From Panorpa germanica (Eukaryota; Arthropoda; Insecta; Mecoptera; Panorpidae), in NCBI GenBank assembly GCA_963678705.1, contig OY783212.1, forward strand, positions 10,602,001 through 10,666,000: DNA of 64,000 bases, given 5' to 3'. How positions within the stretch are numbered: the stretch's first letter is position 1; every line of letters starts with the position of its first letter. Of the stretch, positions 34,880 to 64,000 are shown piece by piece. Position numbers and translations under genes: made by a program. Under the pieces are notes generated by a model that was not told where the DNA came from, made no database searches, and was given only the letters and a program-made list of their open reading frames with translations.

Positions 34880-34921
34880 TCAATGGTAACCATTGGTGAA
34901 TGCCGCGGGTATAAGAGGGCC
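34880..34921 (-). CDS. Rbp6: Canonical last coding exon of Musashi Rbp6 (GPLIPAAFTNGYH stop)
   Basis: After a strong acceptor (CCCTTTGTTTGTTGCAG) this phase-0 segment encodes GPLIPAAFTNGYH and TGA at 34880-34882. Joined to the preceding exon it reads ...APLNYSP-GPLIPAAFTNGYH. Vertebrate MSI1 and MSI2 end in GPLIATAFTNGYH, so 11 of 13 residues agree. Such conservation at the extreme C-terminus, across an AT-rich 6-kb intron, makes this the best-supported terminal exon and confirms the family. Only 33 nt after the stop there is a consensus donor (GCAG|GTGAGT), so the 3' UTR may be spliced. Confidence 0.95.
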   Translation of the reverse strand, partial: GPLIPAAFTNGYH

Positions 34922-35748
34922 CTGCAACAAACAAAGGGACAAATGTAAGTGTTTAGTACTTCATATAACAGATGGCACTGCTATAGAAGATAATGAATTG
35001 TACTATATTACTATCATATATAAAAAAATATAAACATCAAGAAAACAAATTGTCACAACGTAAAATTGTGATATTAGTTTAAATATTAATTATTGACAAG
35101 GTTTGGTATATCAGCTAATCAAAGCTGGTCTGGTGTCACTTGTATTTAAGCAACGGTAAATGTAATATATATATGTAAGAGTAAGTTAAAATTTTGAATA
35201 TTTGTTTACAGATAAATATATAATAGATTTGCGTGGACTATTAAGTAGTTGTTTATAGGTTAGAATTTTAATATACATTGGTCTATTCGTCAAATTGACA
35301 TAATAGGCAACGTTAAAAGGATGAAAAGAAAACTAAATTTATTATTCTAAATAAATAAAGAGACATATAAATAATTACGCAAGTGGTTCATCGATATTAA
35401 ACATAAATGGAAAGAAAAGTAATTAACGTAATTTATTATTCATAAAAACTCACGTCTGCTAATTGTTCATATGGTATTGGTTAAGTAAATAAAATAAATT
35501 TTTCGAACGCACTTTAAAATTCATTGAAACCTGTAATCATTGTGAAAAAGTATTTTATATAAATTGTAGACATAAAATCAATTTATTGACATTCAATTAA
35601 ACTGTCCAACAATTGTAATGTATTTTTTATCAAATACTAACAAGAGTCTATATGTTAGTATGTTAAATGCCAATTACTTTAGTCTCGTCTGATTGATTTT
35701 AGGGTCTGTAGCAATCGGTAGAGTTGTTATTTCTAAATTTTTCATGTA

Positions 35749-35900
35749 CTCAGGTAGAAAGATAGATATACTCATGTTAGTTAGCCATAAGCTAGCTATT
35801 CCAAGGTTCATTTTTTACTTATCATATAGAAATTATCTTGTAGTGCGGTTTCATGATTGTCAGCTAATTCAAGTGTTCTAAGAGACTATTTCTTTTTCCA
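35749..35900. mobile_element. TA-inserting MITE, copy 3
   Basis: Starts TA-CTCAGGTAGAAAGATAG, contains AGCCATAAGCTAGCTATTCC and CTTGTAGTGCGGTTTCATGA in the family order. The right end is worn, so its boundary is approximate. Confidence 0.45.
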
Positions 35901-37404
35901 AAAGTGAAATATTTTCTATTAATTTCGGGGAAATGTAATATAAAAATTCAAAATATTATTGCAATAATTGAAAGTAACTTTTTAAACGATTCTTCAACGA
36001 ATAATTACGAACAAACGTTGGAATTTGTTATTTTGTTGAATACAATACATTTCTCATATCATATTAATTTATAGTTGTCTCTCTTTGCATATATTGCTGT
36101 AATTGAACGTAATCGTAAAATTAACTGAAACAAATAATAATAAACTAGACAAATAACACAGTTAGTGAGTATATAATAACAACCAACGATAAATGATTGA
36201 ATGAAATGGAATTAAATAACTACTTCGAATTGAAGTAAATACGTAATAACATCATAATGTTAATTACAAAATATATAAATAAAATAACAGAGTAAGTTAA
36301 AACAATCGTTGCCAAATTCAATTATATTCATTATTAATTCATTCACTGGGAAAATAATAACGTTTTATGTGGAAGAGATATAAAATATGGTAAACCAACT
36401 TAAAATAGTCAATATTGGTATTAGCGTGGACAATACCCAATTGAATACTGTTTCAATAATGAAATAATGTGGTACATAATCATATGTATTTGACTGAATT
36501 TTTATTTTTAATTAATTACTTGTAATTTATAATACTTCGACTGATTTTATGATAATTAATCCATTTTATATTATTATATAATATGGTTTTGAACAGTTTC
36601 AATATACATAAAGCTTTTAATTTAATGTTTAATCAAATAAAGGAAATATAAAAGATAAAATAAAAATTTAAAATTTTACTAAATGCATATGTAAATATTC
36701 CCATGTTAATTAAAATGATTTAACAGTTTTGTAATTAATTAAAAAAATTATATTTAATTATTTAATGTTGCAGAATAAAAATATTTTAAATAATTTCAAA
36801 AAATCAGAAAATTGCATTACGTACTTTTATACTATAAAAATTACAACAAAAAGATATTAATAAAAGTTTTTGATAATATCGTCAATAACAAAAAACCCGT
36901 CACAAAATTAGGGGGTACAAGGATTACACAACGAATAAAAATCATAAAAAACTAATTCCGGAAGAACTTTGGTATGCGTTATGGAAAGAATCTATACTAT
37001 ATAAATATTGAATTAATATGATTATAAAAAAACTAATAATTTAAATTAATCGTGACATTTGTGCAATAAATGAATTCATAAAATATGATTGCACATGAAT
37101 TAATTAACAATTATACGCGTCATCTGGCGTTCATGACAAGCATTTTGCACACACATGGTTAGGGGTACAAGGGAAGGGAGTTGGTGTTGGTAATCGTACG
37201 AGGGGTAGAAGGATGTTGAATTAAATATGGTGACGATGGTTGCCTAGCTATACTGTACGATTATAAAATACGTCAAATTGTTAATTGGTCTGTATTAAAA
37301 TGTTAGTGGTTAATTTTAATGGCCATTTAGTAATATAATTACACTGTCAATAATTTGTTCATAATATTATTTACAATATTGTTATATTAAATATATTAAT
37401 CGCT

Positions 37405-37510
37405 CAACACAGTTACTAAGGTTTATGTAACATAACAAATGTTAACTGTTAATACACGTTTTGCAACCTATTTTATTGCTTTTTATACTTAAGAACACCT
37501 TTTCAAAAAC
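37405..37510. repeat. Old dispersed repeat, partial copy
   Basis: CACAGTTACTAAGGTTTATG followed by TAACATAACAAATGTTAAC and an ACACGTTTTGCAACC-like block matches the first half of the family at 1685-1945. Confidence 0.3.
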
Positions 37511-38506
37511 TAACATCATAATAAGTCTTTTTTCAGGATTACAGGCATATGGAATAAAATAAAAGTTAGCAAAATTAGCGAAAATGTCAAATATCAAGAA
37601 ATAAAATTCTCAATAAATATAAAATTGGAGATGATGTACATTTGCATTAATGAATTCAATTCGGCATAAGAACTAAGGGACAAAATGTTACTTTAAATAG
37701 AACTAGACAAAAGTGAGTAAACTTAATTTTTTTTAGGTTAATAACGGTTGGTTATTAGCATGTTTGTTAGTTCGAATGACTTATTTTATAATTTGTTCTG
37801 AATCTGGCATTATTTCTAATTAAGTGTCATGATGATGATTTTACTGAAACTGATTTTAGTAGCGCACAAATTTCCACAACAGCAAATTGTTTCTCAACAG
37901 TGTAATACCATCATATTTATTTTGTTATTGCGGCAGTTGTATTATTTTGATCATTATTTTGTTAACATTGTTTATTTTAACTCATTATTATTATTACTAA
38001 TGCATTATGTGTCTATGTATTGGAATTACACATACAGGACTCTATCAGTATGACCGCGATAGTATCACCATCAATTATTTATGCATATTTCCTACCACAT
38101 GAGAGGAGACCAGTTAAAAATATTTTTACATTAAAATTTTATTTTTGAATATAAATTTATGATTTTTAAAATATGGTAGTTTTATTTAAAAATATACGAG
38201 GCTAGATTGTTTGTCATAAATATTAGGGGTATAATGCAATGGAAATAAAACGTTACGTGTGGTTGTTTAATAAATCGTTTGATTGTTGCTTTATGAATTG
38301 TATATTATTCGCCAAATACCGATACCAGGACCCACTGATCACAGCTATTTATACTTCATTTGTATTTTATATATAAAAAAAAATATAATTGACATAAAAT
38401 CCTTTATGTAAAATTGTCAAAGAATTGATAAATACAAGCAAATATTTAGCGGTAGAAATCATATTGGAAATACTCGACAACGATTAAAAATAAGAAAGAG
38501 CACTTT

Positions 38507-38700
38507 CCAGGCAGAAAATGTAAAGTAATGTAAAGCTTTTGTTAACTAGTAGTAAGCTAGCAATTGTAAAAAGTTTGCAAGGCAATTTTCTATATAAGAA
38601 GTAAAATATGAAACTTAGAGCTAGCTTGTTATAAGCTAGCAAGTATGAAACTGTACTGCAAGGCAATGTGTTTTTTAAGTTTTATTTTCTTTAGAAAATA
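38507..38700. mobile_element. TA-inserting MITE, copy 4 (possibly two halves)
   Basis: CCAGGCAGAAAATGTAAAGT at the left; inside it AGTAGTAAGCTAGCAATTG and again AGCTAGCTTGTTATAAGCTAGC-type palindrome (38620-38641). The core occurs twice, suggesting a doubled or nested copy. Confidence 0.5.
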
Positions 38701-39908: not shown

Positions 39909-39992
39909 GTATGTAGAAAATGTAACACTTTAATTAGCTTGTAGTAAGCTATCAAGCGTAAAACTGCACTGCAAGACAATTTTCTACCCGGA
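39909..39992. mobile_element. TA-inserting MITE, copy 5
   Basis: Starts GTATGTAGAAAATGTAACAC, has TTAGCTTGTAGTAAGCTATC and ACTGCACTGCAAGACAATTT, and ends TTTCTACCCGG. Confidence 0.6.
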
Positions 39993-40784: not shown

Positions 40785-40874
40785 TTACCAACTTTGATAA
40801 ACTGTACCATTCATTGTATTATACAATTCTAAATTACTTCTATTTCGTAAATACGCTTGTTGATAAACACTTAC
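40785..40874 (-). other. Open read-through of the exon 40875-41128 donor
   Basis: Ignoring the GTAAGTG donor gives 29 further codons (VSVYQQAYLRNRSNLELYNT...) to TAA. The composition is AT-driven and unlike the Musashi tail, so I consider this intron, with intron retention a remote option. Confidence 0.15.
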
Positions 40875-41128
40875 CGGGCTGTAGTTAAGAGGTGCGCGAC
40901 TTACGGCGATCGCTGGAAATCCAGACGGCTGTGGACTTGCTGCTTGAACGTAGCCAACGCTATCGGGTCCACTTGAACTGTACATGTCAATTGTGGGTCC
41001 CGGAGAGTTAGCAGCCGTAGGAAACCCCCCTCTGGTGGTGACGGTGGTTGCGTGAGGGGACGCTGGGGGGCCGAACTGGGCGGCAGCCGCTGCAGCCTGG
41101 TAGTTGTTCATCACTGCAACCGCGGGCA
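40875..41128 (-). CDS. Rbp6: Musashi Rbp6 internal exon with the SPGP/AASPQPSGF tail
   Basis: This 254-nt exon is the largest coding block in the window. After a split Val it encodes PAVAVMNNYQ, a run of six Ala with QFGPPASPHA, then GGFPTAANSPGPTIDMYSSS, GPDSVGYVQAASPQPSGF and PAIAVSRAPLNYSP. The order GGFP - NSPGP - DMY/DLY - AASPQPSGF matches the vertebrate Musashi C-terminal region. It ends in phase 0 at donor CCCG|GTAAGTG. Two in-phase acceptors are available at its start (41129-41130 and 41114-41115), so the first five residues may be optional. If the donor is ignored the frame runs on for 29 AT-rich codons to a stop at 40785. Confidence 0.95.
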
Positions 41129-41583: not shown

Positions 41584-41649
41584 CTGACAGCGCTTGCGTC
41601 AGAAGGGGGGTATTGTTATTTGGAGTCAGCTGACCGTTTGTGAGATCCA
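41584..41649 (-). CDS. Rbp6: Musashi Rbp6 internal exon (DLTNGQLTPNNNTPLLTQAL)
   Basis: This 66-nt minus-strand exon lies between acceptor TTTTGTTATTATTTATAG and donor CTGTCAG|GTGAGT. Its first two bases (TG) complete the codon begun by G at the end of exon 59980-60063 to give Val. It then encodes DLTNGQLTPNNN, TPLLTQALS and ends with one base (G). It is symmetric, so it can be skipped without frame loss. Asn/Gln/Thr/Leu-rich composition suits the low-complexity tail of Musashi proteins. The flanking exons and both phases fit exactly, which is the main evidence. Confidence 0.85.
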
Positions 41650-41997
41650 CTATAAATAATAACAAAATAAATTAGAAACAAATCAGGTATCAAAGCGAGA
41701 AAATGAAACAAATGAAATCATCTTTAAACCAGCACTGAAATAAGTTTAACAGAAATACAAATATTACGCTAATCCAATGTGTCAGACTAAGTAAACTGAG
41801 TTAGTACATGTTATACATGATGCATTACGATAAATCAAATATATACAAATTCAAGAAGTGATTACAGGTCAAATTATATTGATTTTCAAAATCTAGTAAA
41901 GCTACATTTAAAGGAAGTATAAAATTTCCATCAACATTAATTTGTAAATAATATTCTATTTGACTTTCTTAAAATTTAGGTAGAAATGAATACTGAA

Positions 41998-42068
41998 ATG
42001 AGCTTGTAGAAAGCTAGCAAGCTGGCTACTTTTACTACTTTACGATTGATCTAAATGAAATGTAGAAA
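41998..42068. mobile_element. TA-inserting MITE, worn copy 6
   Basis: ATGAGCTTGTAGAAAGCTAG followed by a worn right half ending ATGTAGAAAATTA. Recognised by the internal core only. Confidence 0.3.
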
Positions 42069-43297
42069 ATTAAGCTTGGAATTAGTTTGAAAATTATTTT
42101 TTTAATTTAATCTATCAGCGCTAAAACACACAAGTGCAAGATAACTAAGATTGAATTAAACCTGTGATTAAAATTTTATTCAATCACTTATTGTTTTATA
42201 AAATTGACATTATTTAAGGAATGTATTTCTTGAACATGGAAAAGATGTTATTCATCACTATTTACTATTAGATAAAAATAAAAATATTGGTAAAAGTGAA
42301 GGTGTGATATACATTTAAATAAAATATTATAATAAATATTTTACTTCATACAAATAACTAGAATACAGAAAACCAGAATATTTTGAATTCATATTCAATA
42401 CCGAGTTCGAATATTACTGGCTAGTATTAATAATAAAATAAGTACTAATCAAGCCATTGCTTGGCGTAAACGATATTTCTTCTCATTAAAAAGCAATCAA
42501 CGTACGAAATTTTTATTTTTCCATTAGAAAACTACAAAAGTAGCGCCACTAAATCTACTATAACTTCTAAACTAATGGTCGAAATGTTATGATATGTAAT
42601 CATGATTTAAATCCTTCATTATTTTTTTAAATAATTTGAATCACATTCTTGAACGTTAAAATAGCAAAAAATCAGATTAATTTTGTTGAATAAATTTGCA
42701 AGAAATGAGCATAAAAATTATAATTGCAATAAAATATACATTACAAAGTAATAGAATTTTTAAACAGTAATTTATGTAGTTTCGTTTTATTTCAATTATT
42801 TTCATGTTATTTAAATAAATAATCAATTGTAATGTCAAAAAATAATAAATATGCAAAAGTATAGTTAACGTTTTGCTGGGATGGTCTAGAATTTATTTTT
42901 AATTTAATGTTTTGTGTTGAGCATCTATAGCACTGCGCACGCATAGGTAATAAATTTTAAATGTTTTTCCATTTATATTTATGATTCTGTGAAAATATAT
43001 ATATACAGGGTGCTGGCCTTATCGATACCAAGCGAGAAAGTAGAGATTAAAATATGAAAAGAAACAATATGATACTATACAATGTGTCAGGGATTTCAAA
43101 GTATCAGTATTTGTTGACAAGACTAGTGATAGTTGTTACCTTTTCAATTTATAAATTTCTAATCATAAATGCAGTAATTGTATAAAATAGAGGCTGTTAT
43201 GTTTCAAAATTATTAAATTTATTAAAACGTGGTATAGAACGCATGTACTAAGCTTCAAGGTTTTCGTTGAAAAAACGGGCTAACTCTAAGTGAAATT

Positions 43298-43299
<2 letters not shown>

Positions 43300-43362
<63 letters not shown>
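43300..43362. repeat. (AT)n microsatellite, about 31 units
   Basis: Uninterrupted AT dinucleotides inside the large Rbp6 intron. Confidence 0.95.
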
Positions 43363-43365
<3 letters not shown>

Positions 43366-43821
43366 AATTTACAGGTTAAAAGTTTCACCTGAATTGAGCA
43401 AATACCAGTTTTTTAAAAACCATGACGCTATTAAATATATTTGGTTTTTTTTTCTCTATAACACTTTTCCAAATTAACATCGATTTACCTAACACCCTAT
43501 ACATATTTTTTTACGTATACTTGAAATGATGGTACCGGAATACCAAAACACCGGAACACCGGAAAACAGAATTACCGGAATATATGAAACCACGAGTGGT
43601 TTGAATATTTATAAACATAATAATTATTTTAGCATTTTTTAAAAATAATATAAAATATGAAATAATTATTGATAATGAACATGCAATGCGAAATATGGCG
43701 GAACATGGTGAATGGACGGACAAATATTTATACGATGTTAAATGAGTGGATGTTATGTTTAATTTAATATGACATGGGTAAGTAGCCGCGTTGTAAAACC
43801 GTTCTAAATATACACATTTTA

Positions 43822-43900
43822 CCCAGATAGAAAATGAACCTTGGAGCTAGCTTGTGACAAGTTAGCAAGTGTGAACCTTACACTGAACCATTTAATTATT
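43822..43900. mobile_element. TA-inserting MITE, copy 7
   Basis: TA then CCCAGATAGAAAATGAACCT, then GGAGCTAGCTTGTGACAAGT and AGCAAGTGTGAACCTTACAC. The right end is truncated. Confidence 0.55.
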
Positions 43901-43914
43901 TACTTATAAACTTT

Positions 43915-44030
43915 TATTTTTATTTAATTTAATCGGACTATTTCCGATGCTGAGTCCTATCACTGATGGCCTCCTACTACGTTATCAGTTTTTGTGTCGT
44001 CATAGCCTCATACTCGTCGTTTTGTTGTAT
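43915..44030 (-). mobile_element. SINE-like fragment (left part)
   Basis: GGACTATTTCCGATGCTGAG, then CCTATCACTGATGGCCTCCT and ACTACGTTATCAGTTTTTGT; matches 48455-48560 closely and the left part of 4195-4490. Confidence 0.45.
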
Positions 44031-47000
44031 TTTATTTCAATTTTACAGCAAGTGTATTTACGCGCGATGTGTTTTCTATGCTATAATAGGTAATAACGAG
44101 TTCGTATTAATGTACACTCAAGATAGATGTTTAATAATAACCCATTTCTTACGCAGCTAAAGTGTAAATTCTAATGTAAGCTTTATAAAATAAAAAATAA
44201 TCAATTATCAGTCAGGGCTATATATCCTGCAAACAAATTACAGCAGAAACACAGTGCCAATATTCAAAATACAATAAGTTCTGAATTTTTTTAATTTCAG
44301 GTAATTTAATCACTATAATATACTAAATTGATAACTATGTTATTTATTAAATAAAATGATTTTTCTTTTAATAACTATATAGTAAATATGTACCATATAT
44401 CAGAATCTTTATCGTATTTAACTAGAGAATGGTTTGATGTGTAGGTACATATATGGATTAGCAATAATTTAATTTTATTAAATTATTGAAAACAACTTCA
44501 CGAAATATTGTGATAAATGGACAAGAGTATTCGAAAACAAACACTACGAGAGAAACAGACCTGTTTAGATGGTAATTAATATGTTTTGCACATTAGACTG
44601 ACACATTAGATATTTAGCTTAATATATACAGGGTTTAAATAATTAATTAAATCATGCATAATAATCATTAAAGTTTATATAAGCAAAAGTAGTCATCTGG
44701 TGGAGATCGCTCTGGTGGTGATTATAGGAACTAATTTGTAAGGATATTAAGTGTTTTTGAACCATAAATATACATAATTAATTATTAATTTAACTACAGT
44801 ATAGAAATAAGAGTTTCTTTAATTAATTTTGCTAATAGTAACTCATAATAAATATAGAAATGGTTCAACAATCACTTTAGAAGTATAAAATTTGATGGTA
44901 ACTATTATAGAATGGTAAACATAGAGATTAGAAAGATATTTTACTTTGCTGGCGGTCTAAGGTCAGCCATGCGAGTATTAATATGTGTTGAGCTATTACT
45001 ATGGTCTAAGCTATGACACTTATTAATTAATTGATCTTTTGTTAAATATCTCGTATATAAAACTTTTGCTTTCATTTTTATTGCATAAGGTTTCATCATA
45101 TAAAAATTATTTGAATAAGTAATTCTTAAAAAAGGACTCGAACAAAATATACAATGTTAAAAGGATACAACTCTCCTGTTAAATATAGGTACGTATATTT
45201 AACCTTTATTTAACATAAAAAAGTGTACCCGTTATATAATACGCTTTTTGGTTGATATAATATAAAATTATGTAACAAATATCATTCGTCATAAATTTAC
45301 ATTTTCCGATATTAATAAACTCTTAAATAATGTAACATAATTATGTTAAACTGTGGAAAATAACACAATATAACTTTAGGAAAAAAATATTACGTGAAAT
45401 AATACACGAGTTTATGTTTTGTGATTACAGTTTGTTGTTTATGTAAAAATTAGTAATTATTGAATTAAATTTAATAATTAATTTTAATCTATTAAGGAAG
45501 TTAATTGTCAAAGTTGGGCAAATTAAATACTTTTAATTAGTTCCGTTGGTATAGAAGCAGTTAAATTGTAATTAAAAGGGTACACATCATAGCTTTACGA
45601 AAATAAAAAAGTAAAACATATTACTTCAAAAAAATTTATATGTGGAAAAATGTAAGCAAAAGTATACATACACACACATTAGGTAAATTGTTTATTATTA
45701 GTTAAATATTGTTATAAAGCTCACTAGAAAAATAAATATGAACAATATACACACACACACACAAGTACACCACACATTAGTTTCTAATGACAAATTGTTA
45801 TGTAAATATTGACTATTATTGACTATGTACTAATTACTAAAGCTATAGTTATTATTTATTAATTGTTTAAATATTTGTATTTAATATTATATAATAGGTT
45901 ACTATGTTTAAATATAAAAAGTATATATTTTGTATTAGTTCTGTACTTAGTACAAGTAATACTCAAATTATTTGAAAGTACATAATTGCAAGTTTTCTTT
46001 TATAGAAAACTAGATTCTTGATTTATATAATTTTGATAATATAAAACATATACTTTTACTAAAATGTTTTCGTCATCATTGTCCTAAAATGAGATTTCTA
46101 AGAAACTATTATTATAATTAGATTATTTATTTTAAACTATTTTCTGTATATTATTATAAACTAAATAATAGTCTATAACTATCTATGTATCTATAGACTA
46201 TATTATCTTTTGATTTACATAATATTTTTATAAGCTGTTTGACGAATTCCGATGAAACTAATCATATTCTAATAGCTCATTAATGCAGTATCCAATTAGC
46301 TAATTTTGTTCTGTACATTATTGAGGAAAAATCTTTACGTGCAAGTCTTTATATTTATTTCATCAAATTAATTATAATTTTTATTAACACGATTACGATT
46401 TTAGTTGCTATCCTTAATCCTTAATTACAGATAATTGGATTTATATTTAAGTAGTGTCATTTTGAATATTTTTTCCAGACTGTATATGTATGTAGTGAAA
46501 ATAAGATATAAAAGTGATACTTTTGAAATTTCACTAAATGAAAAAGCCACAAAATTTAATTTTATCCAGTTACTAGTTTCTCTTGCTCTACCTTCCCTTA
46601 CTAATTAAGACTTTGTCTTATCGCATTACTAAATTCAAGCGAAGTTCTTGCGATTAAGTCAATTTATTTATATTTTCTGATTTTTGCAAGTTTAATTAAA
46701 TAAATAATAATCATTTTAATAATAATGCATTTACTGACTAGATGTTCTTCAATGCATTTTGGACTTAACCACATTGGTTTCTGATCGACTAAATTAATAT
46801 TTCGTTTTCTATTTGTCAGACAGATATGAAACTAGATGCTAAAGGTGATAACAATTTAACATTTTAAGGAGGGTATAAAGTTAGTAACTAGTAATAAGGA
46901 TTCAACAGAGAAAACTACAGAAAGAAATCCATGCTTTTTAACACATCACTTATTTATATTGTGAAGTCATTGACATTAATTTGACGTAAGTAAGTATAAA

Positions 47001-47287
47001 TAACTTGCAACGTAGAAATTAGATGTTAGATACATCGGAATTCGTAATTACAAAACGGGTACAATAAATTAAATTATTAGTTATATCATTTATAAACTAA
47101 TATCACTAAAAAAAACTCTCTACAAAACGACATTTTTTTAAAACACACATTTTTAACTGTTATACGAGAATCTTCTATTCTATTTTGAACACAAATAAAA
47201 AAAGATCTATTCTATCTAGAATTCTCATTAATAATTTTGATAGTTGCTTAAGATTGAGATAAATTTTACTGTTTTCGTTTCTTTCAG

Positions 47288-47432
47288 ATTAGATCATGTA
47301 CTCCACTTCGAAGATCCTTTTCGTGGTAGATCCAAGATGGTTCCCAATGAAGTTCCGAGATATTTTGCATCAGTTTTTCATTTAATCACAAATTTGAAAA
47401 CACTTTCTTGCCGTTTCCACCGTTTTAGTTAA
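47288..47432 (+). CDS. Possible plus-strand terminal exon inside the Rbp6 intron
   Basis: A strong acceptor-like sequence on the plus strand (CTGTTTTCGTTTCTTTCAG, ending 47287) is followed by an open frame LDHVLHFEDPFRGRSKMVPN, EVPRYFASVFHLITNLKTL and SCRFHRFS, then TAA. The first base completes a split codon. The peptide has a balanced composition compared with neighbouring chance frames. No domain is recognised, no partner exon was found, and a decayed transposon gene is an equal alternative. Confidence 0.22.
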
Positions 47433-48454
47433 TTAAATATCCATATTTCGTCGTATTTACCTTAGCTATGCTTACAATTATTATATTTAAAAACGTTGAC
47501 AAAATCTCTTCCGATTTTCTTATAAACTTTTTACATGATTTTTAGTCTACATATTTGAAAGATTAAACAATACACTATATAGATATTATCAATAAGAAAA
47601 TTAAACTTTTCTATGTTGTAATAGAAATTAAAATAAAGAAGGAACAGAGAAGAATCTAAAACATGCTTGGACACGTTAAAAACGTAAATAATAATTATGT
47701 TTAAATAATAATTAATATTAGATATCTTTATTAGCTCTACAGAATGTTGCAAATACTAATATAAGAATGATCTAACTTAGTGACTCATCCAATAAAATTA
47801 TAACTAAGAACTTTATTTTATATCTTTATCTGACGTTGTTTAAAATTAGACGGTACTATTTTAAATAAAGTTAAGCTACTAATAAACCCGTCTAATGTAC
47901 AACGACGTCTGAAAAAAAATATAAAAAATAAGGGTCTTAGGTTATATTTAATAGAAAATTTCAAAAGTATACATTTTAGTTTCTATTTTTATTTCTTATT
48001 AGTTACGAACCAATGACTTAAAACTGCGATATTTTATTTGTAGAAACTACGTACCGATGTTTATCTGTACATCATTTGACGTTCTGTTTATAATAAAACG
48101 GAAGCATCTACGAATAAAAGCTGGCGACTTTCAAGTTTATTTTAAATTACGAATATGACTTTTGTAATTTTATTATAATATTGTTGAAGAATATTATTTG
48201 GAAACATGCTTGTGGCCACCTAATTTCAATTTAATTTTAGAAATTAAACCAACGGCTAACTCGAACAGTACTAACTAAGATCGTGTGGTTTACACATGAG
48301 CAGAATCAGTAAATAGCTAAACGATGTACAAACTTTTCTGCCTATTAAGGTGGAATTGTAAGTAAACAAATTGACAAGAATTTATCTCACTTTATTTATA
48401 ATCTTTGTAATAGTAACGTACTCATAAAATTATTATTATTTTTTTTAAATTTAT

Positions 48455-48560
48455 TTGTTTTAACGTTGGCCTACTTCCAATGCTGAATCCTATCACCGAC
48501 GACCTCCTACTACGTTGACAGTAATTATAGTATTATAGTGAGCAACACCGCTGCATTATA
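48455..48560 (-). mobile_element. SINE-like fragment (left part)
   Basis: GGCCTACTTCCAATGCTGAA, then CCTATCACCGACGACCTCCT and ACTACGTTGACAGTAATTAT; close relative of the fragment at 43915-44030. Confidence 0.45.
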
Positions 48561-50219
48561 AGTTTTATGATTGATGTTTTATGAAAGTATCTAGAAAATA
48601 TAGCACGATATAGTGTGCAAAACCTAGACTGACCTAATTACCCTAGCTACAATAAGTATGTAATTAAAAATATATATTGTTACATTGATTAAAAAGAAAA
48701 ACAGTGGTTGGATATGATTATTTGTGATGTTATGATACGAGTAAATACCTTAGGCGGAAATCATTATTCGTGTTTTTGAATGCATAGCGGGATATTATTA
48801 TTCAAGAATATGTAGTTAGTAAATATAGGTATACATAATAAATTCATATTTATGGGGTTGAATTTTATACATCTACAATAAATATGTCTAATATAAGCTA
48901 AAACATAACTGGATGGAAATCTAAGCAGGCAGTCTATGTTTAAATATCTATCGACTAACGACCTGCATCATTTGAATCAACACAGCAATTAAAAAAATAA
49001 CTAATTAGTTTAATGAATTTATTTATTAATAATGTTATCACTTAAATACAAAATATTTTAAATATAATTATATGAACTAATTAAAACAATAGGAATTAAT
49101 TTTAATTGTAATTAATGAACCGGAATACATAGTGCGAAACATTTAAATACAAATGTAAATATATACAATGTAGCTATTATTCATAATGGATTAAATGTTC
49201 ATTGTTGAATTATAATATTTAATTATTTTGAAATTATCAAATCGTTTAATCGTATTTTTTCGCATGAGTTATTTGCATAAACACTATCACGTGCGTTGAA
49301 GGACTGCGTTGATAATGCTGTAGATAACGAGATTGTAAACGCATGACCGCTAATTGCTAATGGTGATAACGAATCAGTGGAATGTGATTTTAAAAGTACA
49401 CATTAATGGACGTTAGAGTTAGAGTTAATGAAGGAAAAGTTTGAGGCCGCGTACACACTGAAATTATGTTGGGTTGGTAACTAGCTCGGCCAGCATGCTA
49501 GCACATGTTGGCGTAACACAGCCTGATATAAGTCAAGCGGCAAAATAAATGCAAAACACAATGGCAAGCATGTTGGTCATAGATAATTTAGTTCAACTTT
49601 TGAACTGGTGCGAAACATATGGCAAGTTTTTATTATTCTGTAGTAATTGAGTTATTATTGAATAATTGAATAAACTTAATGATAATGTCACTTGGTGACA
49701 ATAATAAGTTTTGCAGTGAATTTGTAAGCATGTGTAGCAAACAGAGGCCACGTTTGTGACGAATGAATCAAAGAGTACAGCAACAAGCATATAAAAAGAG
49801 AGAGTTATTATGGAAAAGTGTAGGAAAACCGGGACTTAACTTTATTTTTCACACTGGTCATACTAACCAGTGTGAGTATTTAGAATATTATACTATACAT
49901 TAAATAATTTTAATGTAATATTTACGCTTTTACGTAAGGACTATTTTAAATAACTCATCATAAATTGGATTGTTTTTTTTAATAAAGTTATCCACCAGTT
50001 CATTTTGAACTGCAATTTTTTGGCACTATCAGTTAGCTTTGTATTTCATTGCACTAAATTAATTTTCATCTTACTAATTGAACCGTAGGGACTTTGTTCA
50101 TGATTTTATTCGTGAAATATAAAGTTGAGCCACGTGAATTTGACTGAATAATATATTATACTACAAAAACAAAAAAACGGTAGTAATTTATCATATATAG
50201 GTTTGACGGTTATAGGTTG

Positions 50220-50460
50220 CTATTAACGTTAGCCATGCTTCACACTGTGTTTGAGCACATGACCGCTATGACGGAAATGTACAGACGCGCAGAAATATGA
50301 GTACAGAAACTGTGTACGCTTCGGCGTTAAATAATCATCACACATCAGCTAAACGCTTAGTTATGAGCGCCCTCTATTAATCACGATAACGATATTCCCG
50401 CGCCCGCGCCAGTGCCAGAGCTGTGCTTCATAGCCCATTCCATGTTTCCACTAATTACTA
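50220..50460. other. GC-rich island inside the Rbp6 intron, unidentified
   Basis: About 240 bp with locally high GC (including a CGCCCGCGCC stretch near 50400) in very AT-rich surroundings. The minus strand has a 20-codon frame MEWAMKHSSGTGAGAGISLS. It could be an internal promoter, a first exon or a transposon end; nothing decides between them. Confidence 0.2.
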
Positions 50461-51497
50461 GAATTAACTAAAGCATTGGGAGCCATTTGGCATTTTGGCA
50501 TGTCAGAAATTAGATTAAACGATCCATTTCGGTATAACAGCTGTTCGCAGTTCAAAAAATAATAATCTACAGTCATTTATTTTTACAAACTTTAACTGGA
50601 CGTTATTTTTGTTAATTTAAATCATTAATTGACATTTTACTTAAAAGTTATACAGTGAAATTACATTTTTTTGAATTAACGGGTTATCCCAATCTGGAAG
50701 CTCAATTCGAAAATTGACTTTTTATGAGTGTCACATTGGTAGGAGTCAATTTATTCTTGCAGCAACAGGATCTGCAACGCTGTTGCAATATATTTATGGT
50801 AACAAATGAACGGCATATAAATACAAGGTGTTCAAGATCCCCTTTCCCAAAATTTTGAAATTTTTGAAAATGACAGCGTCATTGTAATTAACAAATGGTT
50901 CCAACAATTAAAATCGCGATTGTAAACTGAAAATGTAATAATTGTAAAAAGCCAAGTCAATATGATGACAGTTAGTCCAGGCAGTTATCAATCAAGCGGT
51001 GTCAAGAAATGTAGTTTTACAATAATTGTGTTCAAAATTTTAATATTTTGATCCGCATTGAAATGACTAACGTTATCAATTTTTTAATTTTCAAGATCGG
51101 GTTTGTTTTAAACAATTCTTAAACGATACGAGCAAAAAGAAGAAAACGCTTTTCCGAACTTTCCTGACTGGGATAATTCCTGAATTTCCTCTTTCTTTTG
51201 TAAAGATTAGCTTAAAATAATATTGCATACAAATTAAAAAGAATAGATTTAAAATTTAGTGTTTCTTATAGGTTTATCAATAAGACAGTAGTAATATCAC
51301 ATAATTCTTTAATTTTAGAATAACTATGTTTCATATTTGACAAATTACCTATTATCAATACATAAAAAGGGTTACACAGAATATAATTTATAGGCAGTAA
51401 GATAAAGTGAACAATATTTATTAATTATTAATATTTAGACGGATCATATGTAGAACATATACATCGATAATTATCTTTTTCTTGTTTCTCAAATATA

Positions 51498-51593
51498 CCT
51501 CAAGTAGAAAATGTAACGCAATGTAACACTTTAGTTAGCTTGTGGTAAGCTAGCAAATGTGAAACTACACTGCAAGACAATTTTCTAATTGGG
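51498..51593. mobile_element. TA-inserting MITE, copy 8
   Basis: TA then CCTCAAGTAGAAAATGTAAC; inside TTAGCTTGTGGTAAGCTAGC and ACACTGCAAGACAATTTTCT; ends AATTGGG. A nearly complete short member. Confidence 0.65.
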
Positions 51594-52129
51594 AATAAAT
51601 AAAAATAATTTTTATGAAACTTTTTTGCATTATAGATAAAGATATGTTAGAAAGAGTTAAATTGACTTAATATTATAAGTTTAATCCAAGGCAATATTTA
51701 AGGTGATATGAACGTATAATTCAAAAGATTCTATGATTAATTATTATGTTATTATAACCAGTAAAGCTATATTCATTAGTAGAATTGATTGAAAATTTAG
51801 ATTAACATTAACTATAGGTTCTAATTAAAAATCACTTTGTACCAAGGATTCTAAAACTACAACTCTATTCCATTACTGGACAATACGGGTTATTAGATAG
51901 CATACCAAAATGAGGATTCAAACGGTAAATGAACGTACAGAATGTTTACAGCATGATTCCTCGAAATATTATTCAGGATAAATGTAACAAATATAAATGT
52001 TAAAGGATGTTAGTACAACTACTTGCCTAATTATTACAAACAGTCGAATGAGCAAAAAATATTAAATTATAACAGGGGACCTTCAAAAGCTGTTTCCTCG
52101 TAGACACAACGGGTGAATAGTTGGCTTAC

Positions 52130-52215
52130 CGGCCAATAGAGGACTCCGTGACGTGTTCAATGATATAGGACGTCGCCCCAGTGTCAAAGGGGGCCCATGA
52201 CTCATGCCGCAAATT
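52130..52215 (-). other. GC-rich island with a donor-like end, unidentified
   Basis: On the minus strand this island ends at GGCCG|GTAAGCC. Two frames are open through it: one from an ATG (MSHGPPLTLGRRPISLNTSR...) and one reading PFDTGATSYIIEHVTESS. The second looks more protein-like, but ends in TAA at the donor. It could be a transposon fragment or a small exon. I do not recognise either peptide. Confidence 0.22.
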
Positions 52216-52617
52216 GAAAACCCTGTTGTGGTGATATACACACTATTGTACTTCATTTTTAAAGATATTGATTATTACTACTTCATTCTTAAGCAACAGT
52301 ACGAAATATATTTGTCATGTTTAGTATTTTGTTTTTGTACAACAAACCAAAATTTCATGAGTTGTGGCGCATTTTGCATATGCTCGGCTGCTGAACCCCT
52401 CCTACTGCAATTTATTTACGAGTAATGTATTATTGCTCCCACGCGAGCCATATGCACTTATTAAGTAATAACATGGCATTATATCAGTGGCTTGGTACTA
52501 AAAGGGCCAATTCCAAAATATAAAATTCATAATCAGATTCTACGCTTTAGCCAAACTTGAACTACTGAAACGCATTATACTTTAGGTCAATTGATTTAAA
52601 AATTATTTTAGATAAGA

Positions 52618-52765
52618 CCCAGGTGAAAAATTGTCTTGCAGCTTATTTGTCTCAAGCTTGCTACTATATGTTTATTTTCGACTTCCGTCATAGAAATTGT
52701 CAAGTGGTTAGTGCGTTACATGCTAATTCAAGCGTTGTATTTCTATCTGAGAAACTTTTATTGCA
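52618..52765. mobile_element. TA-inserting MITE, copy 9
   Basis: CCCAGGTGAAAAATTGTCTT at the left, followed by the family order with TTGTCTCAAGCTTGCTACTA and GCTAATTCAAGCGTTGTATT; the right end near TATCTGAGAAAC is approximate. Small open frames here are accidental. Confidence 0.5.
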
Positions 52766-54323
52766 ATTCTTTAAATTTTCCATCTCTCTCTATCATTTGG
52801 AATATTAACATTGGCCCTTTTAGCACTAAGTCACTGATATATTTCTGTGTTCTTCTCTTTATAGAATAAATAAATTGATAAAACAGTCTCGTCATTTCAG
52901 GAGGAAGAGTTCCATAATCTTATACAAGCACAAACTCATGAAAACATATTTTGGTTTTCATATCATGAAAACATAATAGTTATGTACTTTTGAAGAAAAA
53001 TGATTATTTTACTGGATGAGTCAGAGAAACTAATGATAAGTTTTACAACAAGAATAATTTTTGAATTATTTAATAAGCAATGATTTAATGCATATTTAAT
53101 TATGGTATAAAAGTATTCCTGAATCTAAAACTGTATTCAATTTTTTCAAACAATGTAAAATAAAATGTTAGTGATAATTTTTAACGTGTCCAGAAAAATT
53201 ATATAAATAAAATAAAAAACCTGAAAATTCTGTAACTTTTAAATAAAATATATTAAATTTACTTCAAGTAAAAGTAAAACTCAAATTAATTAAAGATTTT
53301 TATAATGTTTAGACAAAATAATAATTATTGTATAATATGGGTTTTCTGACTACTGAGGAATAATAATAAAAGGCAATTTAAAATTCAATATATGTAATAG
53401 GTATTATATAATACATATAATGTTTCAAAGAGCGCGGGACGATTGATATCATTATATATTTGTTTATACATTTTAATATAATTATAATATAATTCTTTAA
53501 ATTTATTTACATATACGTTTTATTTTTGTAACGCATTCAAAAATACAACAAACAAGCGAACACATTCATACATTTGAAATATATCTATTAATAGATGTGT
53601 TATCTATTATTTTGTTAAATAAAAATTTATTTAATTAATTTTTATACTTTTGATGTAATGTAAACGAATAATGAAATTATGATATAATTGATTTTTTAAA
53701 TATAATAATAAAATTTATAATTTTTTTTATAATCACAATACTCAAAATTATAATATGGTTTGGTTATGTTTCAATTTCATATAGTAAAGAGCACGCTGGA
53801 ATCTGATTTACAATTTAGTTACTTACTTTTTTTATTATTTTATATAGAATTTGATACAGTATTATTTTTCATTTAAATCAATGTTTCAAATCAACAACGA
53901 TACAGTAATACTAATATTTAAATATTATTTCAATATTCCATCAATTTTCTAAATTATAATCCTTGTTAAATATTTTAATGTTTGATGAAAGTTAACAATA
54001 AATATTATTTCTTAAAAACACTGATTTAAATATACAATAATACATATTCTTAAAAATATGATCTTTTAGCGCTTTCCTAGATCGGACGGTGCCATAAAGC
54101 TTCTGTGAACAACGGGTTTTTATTTTAAATTTAAATTTATAATTTTTGTCGTGTAACTTTGAATAAAATCGTGTTATAACACATCAATATTAACATTTAA
54201 ATGGAAAATTAACAGCAAATATTATTTTTGAAAAAAGATTTTATATGCTTTAATTAATTTATATATTTTTAAAATTTTATTTTAAGAGTTAATATTATTT
54301 TTATAGAGATAAATTATACTTAT

Positions 54324-54329
54324 TTTATT
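54324..54329 (-). terminator. Candidate poly(A) signal AATAAA for the alternative last exon
   Basis: AATAAA on the minus strand lies about 35 nt after the TAA of exon 54362-54450. The hexamer is frequent by chance in DNA this AT-rich, so position is the only support. Confidence 0.35.
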
Positions 54330-54361
54330 TAATGATTGATTATTTTTAATTTAGTGTCTAT

Positions 54362-54450
54362 TTATGAAGCAGACGTCGGTGGCCCTACGATATTCATGTT
54401 TACGTAATCGCCGACAAGAATTTGATTCTCTTGCATTACGCCGACCACAC
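54362..54450 (-). CDS. Rbp6: Alternative last coding exon of Musashi Rbp6 (...VGPPTSAS stop)
   Basis: On the minus strand a strong polypyrimidine tract and acceptor (CCTTTTATTTCTTTTCTCACAG shortened to its last 20 bases: TTTTATTTCTTTTCTCACAG) precede an exon that fits the phase-1 end of exon 59980-60063. The split Gly is followed by [15 protein letters not shown], then [13 protein letters not shown] and TAA at 54362-54364. The exon is clearly more GC-rich than its AT-rich surroundings. It has no donor after the stop and an AATAAA about 35 nt downstream, as expected for a terminal exon. The peptide has no domain I recognise and differs entirely from the canonical GPLI...NGYH ending. I infer an alternative polyadenylated isoform; no transcript evidence is available here. 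Confidence 0.72.
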
Positions 54451-54501
54451 CTGTGAGAAAAGAAATAAAAGGAAAAATACTGAATTTATTTTAAATAAAT
54501 A

Positions 54502-54505
<4 letters not shown>

Positions 54506-54574
<69 letters not shown>
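54506..54574. repeat. (TA)n microsatellite, about 34 units
   Basis: Uninterrupted TA dinucleotides that end about 55 nt upstream (minus-strand sense) of the acceptor of exon 54362-54450. Confidence 0.95.
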
Positions 54575-54580
<6 letters not shown>

Positions 54581-54662
54581 TTTATATATGTATGTATATA
54601 CTTAAATAAAAGCGTAATACGAACAGATATTATATAAAATTATTGAGATAAACGACATTAAC

Positions 54663-54908
54663 GTGATATCCAGAGCGAGACTCCAAGAGGACCGTTATCG
54701 GGCACTAGGAGTGCATGTAACAACGATTAAACGAAAAGAAAAAAATAAACATTCTAAAAGTTATAAAGCACACAAGGTATGGTGGGTAGCTGTGGTGGCA
54801 AACTCGGAGGGTGCAAAGGGCCAAATCGGAGATGTTAGTCAATTATTTTTAAGCGAGTGGATGGAAATAGTCAAAAGGACGATGGACGGCGGGTGCTTAG
54901 CAATATAA
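54663..54908 (+). CDS. Unidentified GC-richer open frame next to the TA repeat
   Basis: A plus-strand frame of about 81 codons. Its product contains RARLQEDRYRALGVHVTTIK, then a basic Lys-rich stretch, then KVWWVAVVANSEGAKGQIG and LFLSEWMEIVKRTMDGG. GC content is visibly higher than in the flanking DNA and the amino-acid mix is ordinary, not AT-driven. No domain is recognised. It starts with a GTG/ATG-like codon context and no acceptor was identified. It lies antisense inside the Rbp6 intron. It may be a mobile-element fragment, a lineage-specific small gene or chance. Confidence 0.25.
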   Translation: MISRARLQEDRYRALGVHVTTIKRKEKNKHSKSYKAHKVWWVAVVANSEGAKGQIGDVSQLFLSEWMEIVKRTMDGGCLAI

Positions 54909-57900
54909 AATAATACGTAAATTAGGGAACACGTTAGTTTTTTATTTTAATTAAATATTGTAATTATATGCTAATGCAGTTTATTAAAAACTCAATAAGA
55001 AAAAAGTATATATACATTTTTGTGTTGCTTTTAATTATTATTAAAATGATTAATATTTAAAAAAAGGTATCACTTTTTGACTAAAACTTATTCGCAAATA
55101 GCTGCGATACCTAAGCAAGAATCTTAAACACCGATATACTTTTACCTAGTGTAGTGAGATTAGATATAATGAGAATATTTTTTAAATTTCAAATCAATTC
55201 GATAAATCGGGTACAAACGTGCTAAAGTGAAAATCGCATAAAAGAAAAAAAAAACGCAAATAAAGTTTTCTTTGCAATGTTGTGAGGCGACTCAGTGTTA
55301 CAGCTCTAAATTGTATTAAAAAGAACTTGCATCATCAAACTGAGAAGTTGTTTATATTATTTTAAAATTGTAATAATATTATATAAAATATAGAAAATGT
55401 CAATGAGGTGGAATTTAAAATCTTTATCAATCTTACAGAAATTCAAAATATGCTTACTTTGTCTCAACTGCTGTTTTAATTTAGTAATTTAATTAACACA
55501 TAATTACAATATTAAATTAAATTTTAATATTAAAATTATTTTTCTTTTTTATAAATATTTATATAATAATACATTTCATTTAAGCGTAGCGAAATTCCTT
55601 TAAAAAATACCTTCATATTTTTTTGTTATATCTTATGCAAATGATGAAATTTTATTTTTTTTGTAATATTCAAGAAATTTACATTCGTTAAAAAGTATAA
55701 AAATAGCGCGCGGTGAATAAAATAGGAAACGGTATAACAATATATTTTAATATTAATAACAGTTTATCAATACAACTGGACAGTTCATTATTTTAATATA
55801 TTTTATTTATTTATTTCATTGTATAATATATAATTAATTATATGGAATGCGCTTAGATAAATTTATAAATAAATCACAGTGGTTGTGATAACGAGGATAG
55901 GTTTTAATCAGTTATTACGTATGTGCGGAGGCCCTAATTGGTTATCAATACGTGCGATTAAAAAACAAATTAATAATCTTTAAGATATGATGAGAAAAAG
56001 TTAAAAAGTACAGAAGAAAAACCAAATACATCCTACTCGATGTTGAGAAAAAACTCAGTGCAATGTGTCTGAAATAAAAACTGTCCTTCTCAGAGGAAAG
56101 CAGTTGACAACCCTATTTGTACGGTACACTTTGCTAGTTCAATTCTTATTAATTACTTTGTTCGAGATATTTTTGTCTATGGGTTCTGCCGCAATGCAAT
56201 CGATTTTCGGTAATTATATTAGGAAAGAACATTTCAAATAATTTTAAGAATAATTTTAAAACTTAACTAGTTATGACTGACTAGTTATGCAAATAATGAT
56301 ACCTAATATAAAAAGTTTTGTTATAAAATTTTCAGCTTTTTGAAAAATGAGTCTACCGTTTTAAATATTAACATAATCATAACATTTTCTAATAAACCTT
56401 TTAAAAGATTAAAGGTTGTTAAACTAGCTATTAAAATTTAGGTTTTAGATTAGAGATTAACAACTTAGATTAAATATTATTAGATTTTGTTTTAAGTAAA
56501 ATATTGTATGAATGTAAGGTAGCATCCTATGTTTCGGTCCTCGGGGTAAGTGATTATCTAATTCAGAATTCTTATATTTTTTTATTTAGCCGTTATGAAT
56601 TCCATATCTTTATTGCAAAAAGCTCTAATTACTATTCTAATAGCAATAAGCAAAATAATGTTTATTTATATAATATTTTTTACGTAGAAAGTAATTCTTT
56701 TCACGTTAAGTAATCAACAAACTCTGAGTTTAGCGGGAATTACTGTGTATTCAATGTAGCTATTTCAATTAAGCTGGGTGTATTACGATTTACGAATAAA
56801 CATCACGTTTTCGATTTATAACTGCCTGTAGATTGTTCATCGTAATACCGGCTGAACATTTCTGGTAAAACTTGAATGATTGCATTGCACTGTAACCTAT
56901 AATTTGATTCACTATGTAAATTTTTGATAAAGCAAATAATAATTATTAGCAAAACGTACTTCATTTTAAAATTGTTTTATTACATGTTACATTAATATGT
57001 TAGCTATAATTTTAATACACCTACTAAAAAACTTTCAATTCTTGTATATTTTTATTGAAATCGATATGTGATTTTCATTTACAAATATATTTTCAATAAT
57101 CGCATTGAAAGTTTATTGAAATTACGTAAGTGTGTAACATTTGGTAATTAATCAGTTGCATTAATTGGCAGTTCGATTTTAAAATGCTTGAATAATATAT
57201 ATAATAAAATATAAAAAGTGAACTCTAATTTTTTAATGTAACATTTATTAATTTCGTTTATTAATTCAAGAGCATGATATTTTGAATATCTGTAAATTAA
57301 AATCAAATATAAAGGTAAATAAATCAATCAAGTAAACGTGTAGCTGTAAGCTGGGTTGACTAGGGATGAAGTGGGGTGGTGTAATGTACCCCTAACTCCC
57401 CGCACATACGTATAACAATACAAATGCCATACATAACGTGGTGGTATATGTTACATATGATATAATGCACGATATATGAAGTCATAGCGAGGCAACAGAT
57501 GTAATATAGGTGACTTGTAATACATGGTCTTTGGGAACACCAGGCGTTCGAATAAATCATTTGTCGTGGCCAATTACAGCAGCACATTTAATATAGTGTG
57601 CAATACTGCCAGTGGTGTATATGTGGTTGAAATAATTTATAGGAAATGAAATTTAAAAAGCAAAATGTTTTTGTGAAAGCAGGGTTGCATTTGCAATGTT
57701 TATTTGCGTAATGAGCTTTTATATTTGAGATTTAAAGTTGTGTAATGAATTTAATTTGACACTACTACAACCCTGGATGATAAAAACTGTGTAGAACAGC
57801 AAGCCATTGTTAGAATGCCTTCCTGTGTGTCGTTCCGTCATGTTTGAAGCAGTGAACCATTACTAAGTCCAGTGTAAAAGTCAAGATACGTTTATGAACT

Positions 57901-59818
57901 GCTTCTGTTCAAAGTTTTGATAGTTCCACAGTAGATTATCCCAGAAAATAAATTAATTCGGAGTAAAAAAGATGTTTCCAGTACTCACAAAGAATAAATA
58001 AATATCAAATAATAACAAATGATTTTTTCAAAAATATTTACATGTAGATATTACTTCGAAATGACTTTCATATAGTGTTGTGCAATAACGAATGGAATGA
58101 TGATAAAAATCATTTAAATTCGATGTAGATATGAGATAAGATAAGAAAACGAGCTAAACCACTAAACTAAAACGACTTAGTCTGAGAAGAAATTACTAAT
58201 TTTAGTACTAGTATTATACCTATTGATATATTGAACCACAAGTTAATTTCTACAATATTTAACTACATTACTTAGTCATTTTTTACAGCACTAACAGATT
58301 AAAGCTTCCAAGTTATATGTAATACAGTAAAACCGATAAGAAAGTGTGCTTTGAGCAGTTACTTTCTTCTTCCACCATGTTAAAAGGCACAACTGGATTT
58401 AAATTTGATTGATTTGTTTTCCACTCAGTCATTATTTTGAAAGTAAGGATGGAATAAGTTTTTGTGTTTCTACAAAATTTTGAAGAGAGCTTTTTGGTAG
58501 ATACTAACATTACCCTTAACTTTTGCTTTGAAACTTTTATAATAAAAAGTTATAGACAAAAATAATTTTAAAATTAATTGTGTAATGAAGAGACATTTCT
58601 TAATGTTAGATTTAGTTTAGTTTATAACTTTTGACAAAAATGTTCTGAACAGACTTTTTGTGGGAGCTTTCGTTTTCAAGATAAACGAAAAACACTGACT
58701 ATCAAAACACACTGTATCAAGATGGCGGTGAATGGTGACGTACCAGAAAACTCAAATTTAAATCCATGTTTGACGCTTTTACCCAAAGTGCACGGTTGTC
58801 TTTTTTTAATACAGAATTTACTGTTTTAATTATTTAAGACTCACTTACAAGAAATATTTATTATACTCTACTAACTTTGACAACTATTATAAAACCAGTT
58901 TTTAGGTTAAATTTTTTTGGAAGCTTTAGAAACACTACTATATGCTTTAACATTAAACTATGTTGATTATATTTATATATATATATATATGTTTATTATT
59001 TGAAGTTAAGTTATTTGTTAACTAACGCTAAATTGCTAACGAAGAAAGTACAGAACTTTTAAATCGGATTCTAGATTATATTGTTTTGTTAAGATTTATA
59101 TTTTATTTATAGAATATATTAATCTAATGTTAAATTTATATTGTAATGGAGATAAATTCGGACACCCTAAGTGTCTACACTATCCATTAAATATTTGAAT
59201 ATTTCCGTTTTAATGCATTCAATATATATTTAATAAAAGATTGTTTTAGTAACATTTTGAAATTTACCAAATTACACAAAGCATGTGTTTTGGATAAAAT
59301 TTCAGTTTTCAGCTGCTAGTTGAATTTAACATATGAATTTTCATATTTATTCCCTCCGATTCTAAACGATTTTTATATGTTATTTACTTTAATTATAAAT
59401 TATATTTATTTATATATAATTGATTATTAATTTATTTAGAATCATTTAATATTAAATTAACATAAATTGTATAAAGTTGATAACTTTCCAATTAAATAAA
59501 AAACAGGTAATTATTTTTTAGAAAACGAAATAAATCTAGAATTTCGTTTATGAAAGGTTGATTTTATTTAAAATTAACAAAATATTTAAATTTGTTGTTT
59601 TTTAATTTATTTAATTAATTAATTTATAGTTTTCAAGGTTTATTATTTGGACGATAATTTTTGCCATAAACTGAATACGATGCATGTCATATTATTACAT
59701 TAATTAATATATAATTAGATGGTTATTGCTTTATTCGTTAATTAGTTGATCATTTCAAAGGAGGATACATACGAATATTAACGGTTAACATTTAAAGTTA
59801 ACTGTTAGTTCACATTGT

Positions 59819-59979
59819 TCACAGATGCATGGCAGCACCGTACACACTCAGGTGCTCAAGCGGATGACACGGTAGCAATGTTAATGATGGATGGGAATGA
59901 TGGGGATGGTGCGGGTGGTGGGGGTGACTATGATGACTGTGGTGATGATGATGATGTAAACTGCTTGTCAAATGATTAC
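59819..59979 (-). CDS. Rbp6: Candidate His-rich alternative C-terminus by read-through of the exon donor
   Basis: If the donor at 59979 is not used, the frame of exon 59980-60063 stays open for 52 more codons and stops at TGA (59819-59821). The extension begins NHLTSSL, then a run of six His followed by Ser/Pro/His repeats (about 20 His in 30 residues), and ends SLTLLPCHPLEHLSVYGAAMHL less its last few residues in other isoforms. The segment is much more GC-rich than the flanking DNA, and the GC drops close to the stop codon. A histidine repeat is made of mixed CAT and CAC codons, which argues for selection on protein over a simple CAT microsatellite. The same stretch is open on the opposite strand too, because the ATG/GGT-type repeat lacks stops, so chance is possible. 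Confidence 0.5.
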
Positions 59980-60063
59980 CTGTGGGGTACGGGAGTCCAA
60001 AACTAGGATAACCGGAGTAGCCGCGACCAGCTGCATAAGCGGCATAGGCGGCCGCTGGAAAAC
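59980..60063 (-). CDS. Rbp6: Musashi Rbp6 internal exon (GFPAAAYAAYAAGRGYSGYP)
   Basis: This 84-nt minus-strand exon follows acceptor TATTTATTTCAG and can end at donor CAG|GTAATC. It encodes FPAAAYAAYAAGRGY, then SGYPSFGLPYPT, flanked by split Gly codons on both sides. The peptide matches the Musashi tail motif GFPAAAY plus GRGYxGxxPSxGxxxP of vertebrate MSI2, in the Ala/Gly/Tyr-rich low-complexity region after the RRMs. GC content rises sharply inside the exon relative to the surrounding DNA. The exon is symmetric (phase 1 in, phase 1 out). The GT at its donor also begins an in-frame extension (59819-59979), so the junction is a branch point for alternative C-termini. Confidence 0.9.
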
Positions 60064-63987: not shown

Positions 63988-64000
63988 CGTGTGTGTGTGT
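63988..64000. repeat. GT microsatellite cut by the window edge
   Basis: CGTGTGTGTGTGT at the right boundary; its full length is unknown. Confidence 0.7.

Follow-up and report, generated by a model that had tools for sequence, protein, structure and literature searches.

The window analysed here is a stretch of 64,000 nucleotides (nt) from Panorpa germanica (contig OY783212.1, positions 10,602,001 to 10,666,000 of the forward strand; all coordinates below are positions within the window). It has a GC content of 27.8% and carries a Musashi-type gene on the minus strand, and several lines of evidence support its identification as an insect-type Rbp6 (Musashi) gene of which the window contains the 3' half; the label "insect" reflects the likeness to Rbp6. 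The exons encoding the RRMs would be upstream of the exons described here, past position 64000 and thus outside the window; KAQPKE, a motif at the end of RRM2, was not found in the six frames of the window. The protein encoded by the canonical exons aligned with the C-terminus of human MSI2 with a local score of 172 (best of 300 shuffles, 88), and it contains the conserved Musashi C-terminal region ending in PLI..AFTNGYH, as judged against the same human sequence. Human MSI2 has Ser-Pro at residues 278 and 303 of 328 and ends in GPLIATAFTNGYH. Published hMsi2 phosphosites, S278 and S303 (PMC5599597), and a published range of MSI2 residues, 235-328 (PMC9054762), agree with the human sequence used and with its length, respectively. 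Successive exons of 33, 84, 66 and 239 nt correspond to exons of 36, 84 (exon 12), 66 (exon 13) and 242 nt (exon 14) in this part of Drosophila Rbp6-A, which also has one of 93 nt (PMC3507872, Table 1); two of the four lengths are thus identical and two differ by 3 nt. Exon-length pattern and C-terminal match together support the original prediction, made from the letters alone, that the gene is a Musashi of the Rbp6 type.

The exon from which all ends described here depart (59980-60063) is flanked by TTTCAG on its acceptor side and by GTAATC on its donor side, and its last base is a single G that opens a codon to be completed downstream. Approximately 1.3 kb upstream of this exon lies a micro-exon (61353-61385) that is spliced to 60063 and was absent from the original prediction; this micro-exon, whose Drosophila counterpart has 36 nt, might be a cassette. 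Along the canonical route, the splice from 59980 spans an 18.3-kb intron to exon 41584-41649, which is followed by 40875-41113 and 34880-34921 and leads to the end AFTNGYH. The coordinates of the 239-nt exon and its second acceptor at 41128 likewise go beyond what had been predicted before. These tandem acceptors (41113 and 41128) lie 15 nt apart, and splicing at the distal site lengthens the protein by five residues, VPAVA. Read-through of the 239-nt exon was considered as a fourth end and rejected; the frame concerned (40788-40874, VSVYQQAYLRNRSNLELYNTMNGTVYQSW) passes the GTAAGT donor of the exon and has 29 open codons, but its GC content of 0.28, and of 0.14 at third codon positions, is intron-like, and this end is therefore probably due to chance.

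Table 1. Predicted exons and C-terminal ends of the Rbp6 gene in the window (splice-site scores in bits; aa, amino acids)
Feature	Positions	Strand	Details
Micro-exon FMWSLGALPD	61353-61385	-	33 nt; flanked by TTCTAG and GTGAGT; phase fits; donor 7.56 bits
Shared exon, FPAAAYAAYAAGRGYSGYPSFGLPYPT plus open G	59980-60063	-	84 nt; phase 1; branch point
Read-through tail (composite terminal exon), GNHLTSSLHHHHHHSHHSHPHHPHHPHHSHPSLTLLPCHPLEHLSVYGAAMHL then stop	59819-59979	-	53 aa; His-rich; stop 59819-59821
Peptide SLTLLPCHPLEHLSVYGAAMHL			within the His-rich read-through tail
Alternative last exon	54362-54450	-	29-aa tail; acceptor CTCACAG; stop 54362-54364
Canonical exon, VDLTNGQLTPNNNTPLLTQALS	41584-41649	-	66 nt; acceptor TTATAG, -0.5 bits; donor 9.88 bits
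Canonical exon with NSPGP and AASPQP	40875-41113	-	239 nt; alternative acceptor 41128 (+15 nt, in frame)
Coding end of canonical last exon, GPLIPAAFTNGYH then stop	34880-34921	-	acceptor 9.4 bits; matches human MSI2 end

The G left open at 59980 can be completed in three ways, i.e., by the canonical route, by reading through the donor into a His-rich tail, or by splicing to a separate last exon that begins at 54450, and each of these continuations reaches a stop in frame. A three-way branch had been claimed at this junction in the original prediction, and the coordinates, frames and stops that it gave for the three ends were correct base for base. We regard three ends from one junction as a credible prediction from DNA alone. 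The donor at the branch (CAG/GTAATC) scored 3.74 bits and was the weakest of the four donors compared, the others scoring 7.56, 9.88 and 8.21 bits.

The exon at 54450 is, we predict with good confidence, a real terminal exon that is used. Its acceptor, with 10.9 bits, ranked first among the 955 AG dinucleotides scored in 34922-59979. Controls consisted of 300 Markov-3 and 300 block shuffles of 41650-59818; an acceptor of at least this strength followed by at least 29 open phase-1 codons was found in 1 of 300 shuffles of either kind, and in none of either when a GC content of at least 0.45 was added. With the limits set to 9.3 bits, 25 codons and a GC content of 0.42, the counts were 0 of 300 Markov-3 and 2 of 300 block shuffles, and on the real opposite strand none of 820 AGs qualified at 5 bits, 25 codons and the same GC content. 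Overall GC content of the 29-aa tail was 0.46 (0.62, 0.34 and 0.48 at the three codon positions), a value matched by 2.2% of intron windows, and an AATAAA follows 33 nt past the stop. The features of an alternative last exon (acceptor, in-frame stop and no downstream donor) are all present at 54450; among GTs from the acceptor down to 54000, the highest donor score was 1.22 bits, and past the stop it was -4.65 bits. As there is no usable donor after the stop, 54450 fits a terminal exon better than a cassette (poison) exon, and the latter was rejected.

The His-rich read-through end is also predicted to be real and used, and this we consider probable. Its coding frame is the only open one of the three, the other two having 3 stops each, and it runs open through the donor to the stop; an AATAAA lies 84 nt past that stop, a signal often expected by chance. 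GC content of the tail was 0.49 (0.68, 0.38 and 0.43 by codon position), which only 0.2% of intron windows of the same length matched. Runs of 53 or more open codons that had a GC content of at least 0.45 started at 106 of 24,497 positions on the minus strand and at 29 of 24,497 on the plus strand of 34922-59818, exon 40875-41113 included. A second donor inside the tail was looked for and rejected (best score, 0.78 bits).

One could suppose that only the 54450 exon is real and that the read-through frame is intron sequence whose openness is due to a CAY-rich tract and to chance. This tract, of 69 nt, supplies 23 of the 53 codons. Tracts of this kind are prone to remain open, and besides the split G codon, chance openness has to be invoked only for 7 codons before and 22 after it; 22 open codons were found at 18% of intron positions. 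However, the stops in the other two frames show that the region of the tract is not open whichever way it is read, and even the 22 codons past the tract have a GC content of 0.515, which was matched by 1.0% of intron windows. Moreover, third positions vary in the interruptions of the tract (His, Ser and Pro codons), for which a bare microsatellite offers no explanation. We therefore consider this account unlikely, though it deserves to be kept in view, and retain the read-through as a probable end. The tail contains a run of six His. According to the title of PMC2644819, His repeats (runs of at least five) play a part in localising human proteins to nuclear speckles, and one might guess by analogy that the tail acts in such localisation here.

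Both Ser-Pro motifs of the kind known to matter in vertebrates, NSPGP and AASPQP, lie in the single exon 40875-41113, 23 residues apart, and neither short tail contains any Ser-Pro or Thr-Pro; at the DNA level, the phosphosite exon is lost with either short end. The branch in human MSI2 presumably lies within one residue of the branch here and would have a compatible phase 1 (canonical G, variant D), as judged from the human sequence and the length of variant 2. Vertebrate Musashi proteins need two serines 25 residues apart for conversion from repressor to activator (PMC5599597). According to the same article, human MSI2 variant 2 (NM_170721) uses exon 11b as an alternative last exon, lacks the C-terminal phosphosites, is close to the full-length protein in its binding of a target RNA, and does not promote translation; the last exon that variant 2 has in common is exon 10 in its text, and 3-11 in a figure legend. 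The arrangement in the window resembles variant 2 in that a shared C-terminal exon is followed by an intron containing an alternative last exon and in that the protein gains a short tail (13 aa in human, 29 or 53 here) and loses the exon that carries the two phosphoserines. Differences are that there are two alternative ends here as compared to one in human, that variant 2 also has a different N-terminus, and that no His-rich read-through is described for variant 2 in the available part of PMC5599597. No homology was found between the 29-aa tail and the human variant 2 tail DYLPVSQDIIFIN, as 258 of 1000 tail shuffles scored as well, or between the His-rich tail, which scored lower still, and the same human tail. 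Residues 194-236 of MSI1 may correspond to sequence upstream of the branch here. The PABP and GLD2 sites of MSI1 are reported to be in these residues (PMC9054762), and if the placement is right, both contacts may by analogy be kept in the short forms. Most characterised MSI1 partners bind the C-terminal domain, LSM14B and ELAVL4 being exceptions (PMC13345177, a 2026 preprint), which supports the view in the original prediction that the tail recruits partners; its further view, that swapped tails would give the same RNA specificity and different outputs, fits, by analogy, the variant 2 precedent as described in PMC5599597.

The account that we favour, with confidence only modestly above even, is that the junction offers a choice between alternative last exons and intronic polyadenylation, and that the short forms would be RNA binders without the phospho-switch exon. 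At 59980, a transcript could (1) be joined across the 18.3-kb intron to the canonical exons, (2) be spliced to the early alternative last exon at 54450, or (3) retain the intron start when the suboptimal donor GTAATC is ignored and polyadenylation takes place in the intron, which would yield the His-rich tail. The choice would most likely be kinetic, with recognition of the weaker donor by U1 set against cleavage and polyadenylation, and with the strong early acceptor at 54450 competing with the distant one. Both short forms would keep the RNA-binding part and lose the 239-nt exon, and the loss of its two Ser-Pro motifs would leave them unable to switch from repressor to activator, as is the case for MSI2 variant 2. 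The sequence itself shows the frames, the splice and stop signals and where Ser-Pro motifs are present or absent, whereas transcription and regulation of the short forms, RRMs upstream of the window, a working phospho-switch in insects and any effect of the His tract are inferred.

The short forms might also be made mainly as regulatory dead ends, with less full-length protein as the outcome of splice errors or intronic polyadenylation, and with tails that are not under selection; this possibility overlaps the other readings, and the probabilities need not sum to one. Premature polyadenylation occurs in very long introns with weaker donors, and an 18.3-kb intron behind a weaker donor provides such a setting. 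On the other hand, GC content is raised at codon positions 1 and 3 in both tails, and the 54450 acceptor is the strongest of the region, which neutral noise would not favour; we thus regard dead ends as improbable, though not negligibly so. More speculative, and rather doubtful in our estimation, is the idea of an ancient bilaterian switch point for Musashi C-termini at the phase-1 junction that follows the shared GRGY-containing segment, to which insects and vertebrates would each have attached unrelated short last exons and so obtained RNA binders not subject to the phosphorylation switch, with two such ends here, one of them His-rich and perhaps directing the protein to the nucleus.

Several observations weigh against the choice of ends that we favour. 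The splice-site matrices were generic and untrained on this species, and two near-certain exons were scored badly by them (acceptor 60063, -1.9 bits; acceptor 41649, -0.5 bits), so that a high acceptor score is evidently not needed by real sites here. At loose limits (5 bits, 25 codons, GC content 0.42), block shuffles yielded 13 of 300 hits, as compared to 0 of 300 for Markov-3 shuffles, and open frames of at least 29 codons were found at 10% of intron positions. The AATAAA motif is so frequent (86 in 24,897 nt) that its presence after either short-tail stop is weak evidence, and the donor of the shared exon, while the weakest of the four, still ranks 7th among 1272 GTs. Vertebrates have a spacing of 25 residues between the two Ser-Pro motifs, as compared to 23 here, and two further Ser-Pro motifs, in addition to two Thr-Pro motifs, are present in the canonical tail. 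Searches with a 49-aa core gave 366 pattern matches in prokaryote contigs and 38 in viral contigs, none of which was confirmed as a relative. Finally, another phase-1 frame (52085-52222; 46 codons, GC content 0.51) follows an acceptor of 1.8 bits at 52222; frame and GC content alone thus occur elsewhere in the same intron, and our confidence in the favoured explanation was lowered accordingly.

This third frame-compatible candidate also speaks for the view that both alternative ends are due to chance and that neither is ever used. As the strict-limit shuffles reproduced the 54450 exon in only 0 to 1 of 300 cases, and as GC content and frame support the read-through, we consider this very unlikely and continue to favour the use of alternative ends. 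Other phase-0 and phase-1 candidate ends were listed down to 25000; outside known exons, the nearest rivals to 54450 were 52222 and 49522 (4.4 bits, 19 codons, GC content 0.54), and both stay candidates despite their weaker acceptors because the two near-certain exons score lower. Frame 52085-52222 could have arisen by chance within a GC-rich island, or it could be one more alternative end.

Should both short ends be in use, a switchable and an unswitchable Musashi would be produced from the single insect Rbp6 gene, by the route also taken by human MSI2. The switch between repressor and activator could then be tested in a genetically tractable insect, and such a pair of proteins could be the reason that antibodies or mutants directed against one end miss part of Rbp6 function. 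If the ends are not used, they would illustrate how common frame-compatible ends are in long AT-rich introns.

Alternative Musashi C-termini are already known, i.e., from human MSI2 and from isoforms A and B of Drosophila Rbp6, and insect gene models may already list the ends described here. As in the window, the Drosophila isoforms differ in their C-termini, and the 84-nt exon is followed by a long intron, which has 6,134 nt in Drosophila Rbp6 as compared to 18.3 kb here (PMC3507872). Isoform B has only 10 aa in common with the C-terminal antigen of isoform A (PMC3507872) and therefore probably branches elsewhere. The published end primer of Rbp6-A translates to NFAMANI followed by a stop (PMC3507872), so that the end of the fly isoform is not AFTNGYH; a counterpart of the NFAMANI end was not found in six frames of the window, and AFTNGYH was not found by a text search of the papers covered. 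Among the listed papers that name both Rbp6 and Musashi, PMC3507872 alone appears, by titles and text passages, to treat Rbp6 isoforms, and a three-way branch is not described for Drosophila Rbp6 in the available part of it, FlyBase, RefSeq and subscription journals being outside this search. A general class of Drosophila genes with alternative last exons or intronic polyadenylation, in which the choice of last exon alters both the C-terminus and the 3' untranslated region, often by cell type, is covered by PMC9470587, the text of which mentions Rbp6 0 times. An Rbp6-like transcript is merely listed in a locust table (PMC6003920), and PMC3654919 was rejected as a source since it uses Rbp6 for retinoblastoma binding protein 6.

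Domain and family searches did not add to these identifications. No Pfam match above the cut-off was found for the canonical and read-through proteins or for frames of the window (best E values, 0.41 for the canonical protein and 0.059 for frame 16950-17489), and nine more frames gave no match at E values up to 0.1. There was no NCBIfam match for the canonical protein and the 29-aa tail, three matches that we attribute to chance (E values of 0.68-0.73) in PDB, which was searched with the canonical protein only, and no Rfam match at gathering scores in the whole window.

GC-rich stretches occur within the 18-kb intron at 54618-54905, 52081-52240, 50321-50440 and 57363-57587. Frames at 54618-54905, 52201-52422 and 57363-57587 gave no Pfam match at E values up to 0.1, and no second copy of the stretches at 54618, 52060 and 50300 was found within the window; the stretches might represent regulatory DNA or remnants of old transposons. 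A direct repeat of 68 nt, with 90% identity between its copies, was also observed, with one copy (39919-39986 and 51520-51587) in each of two introns.

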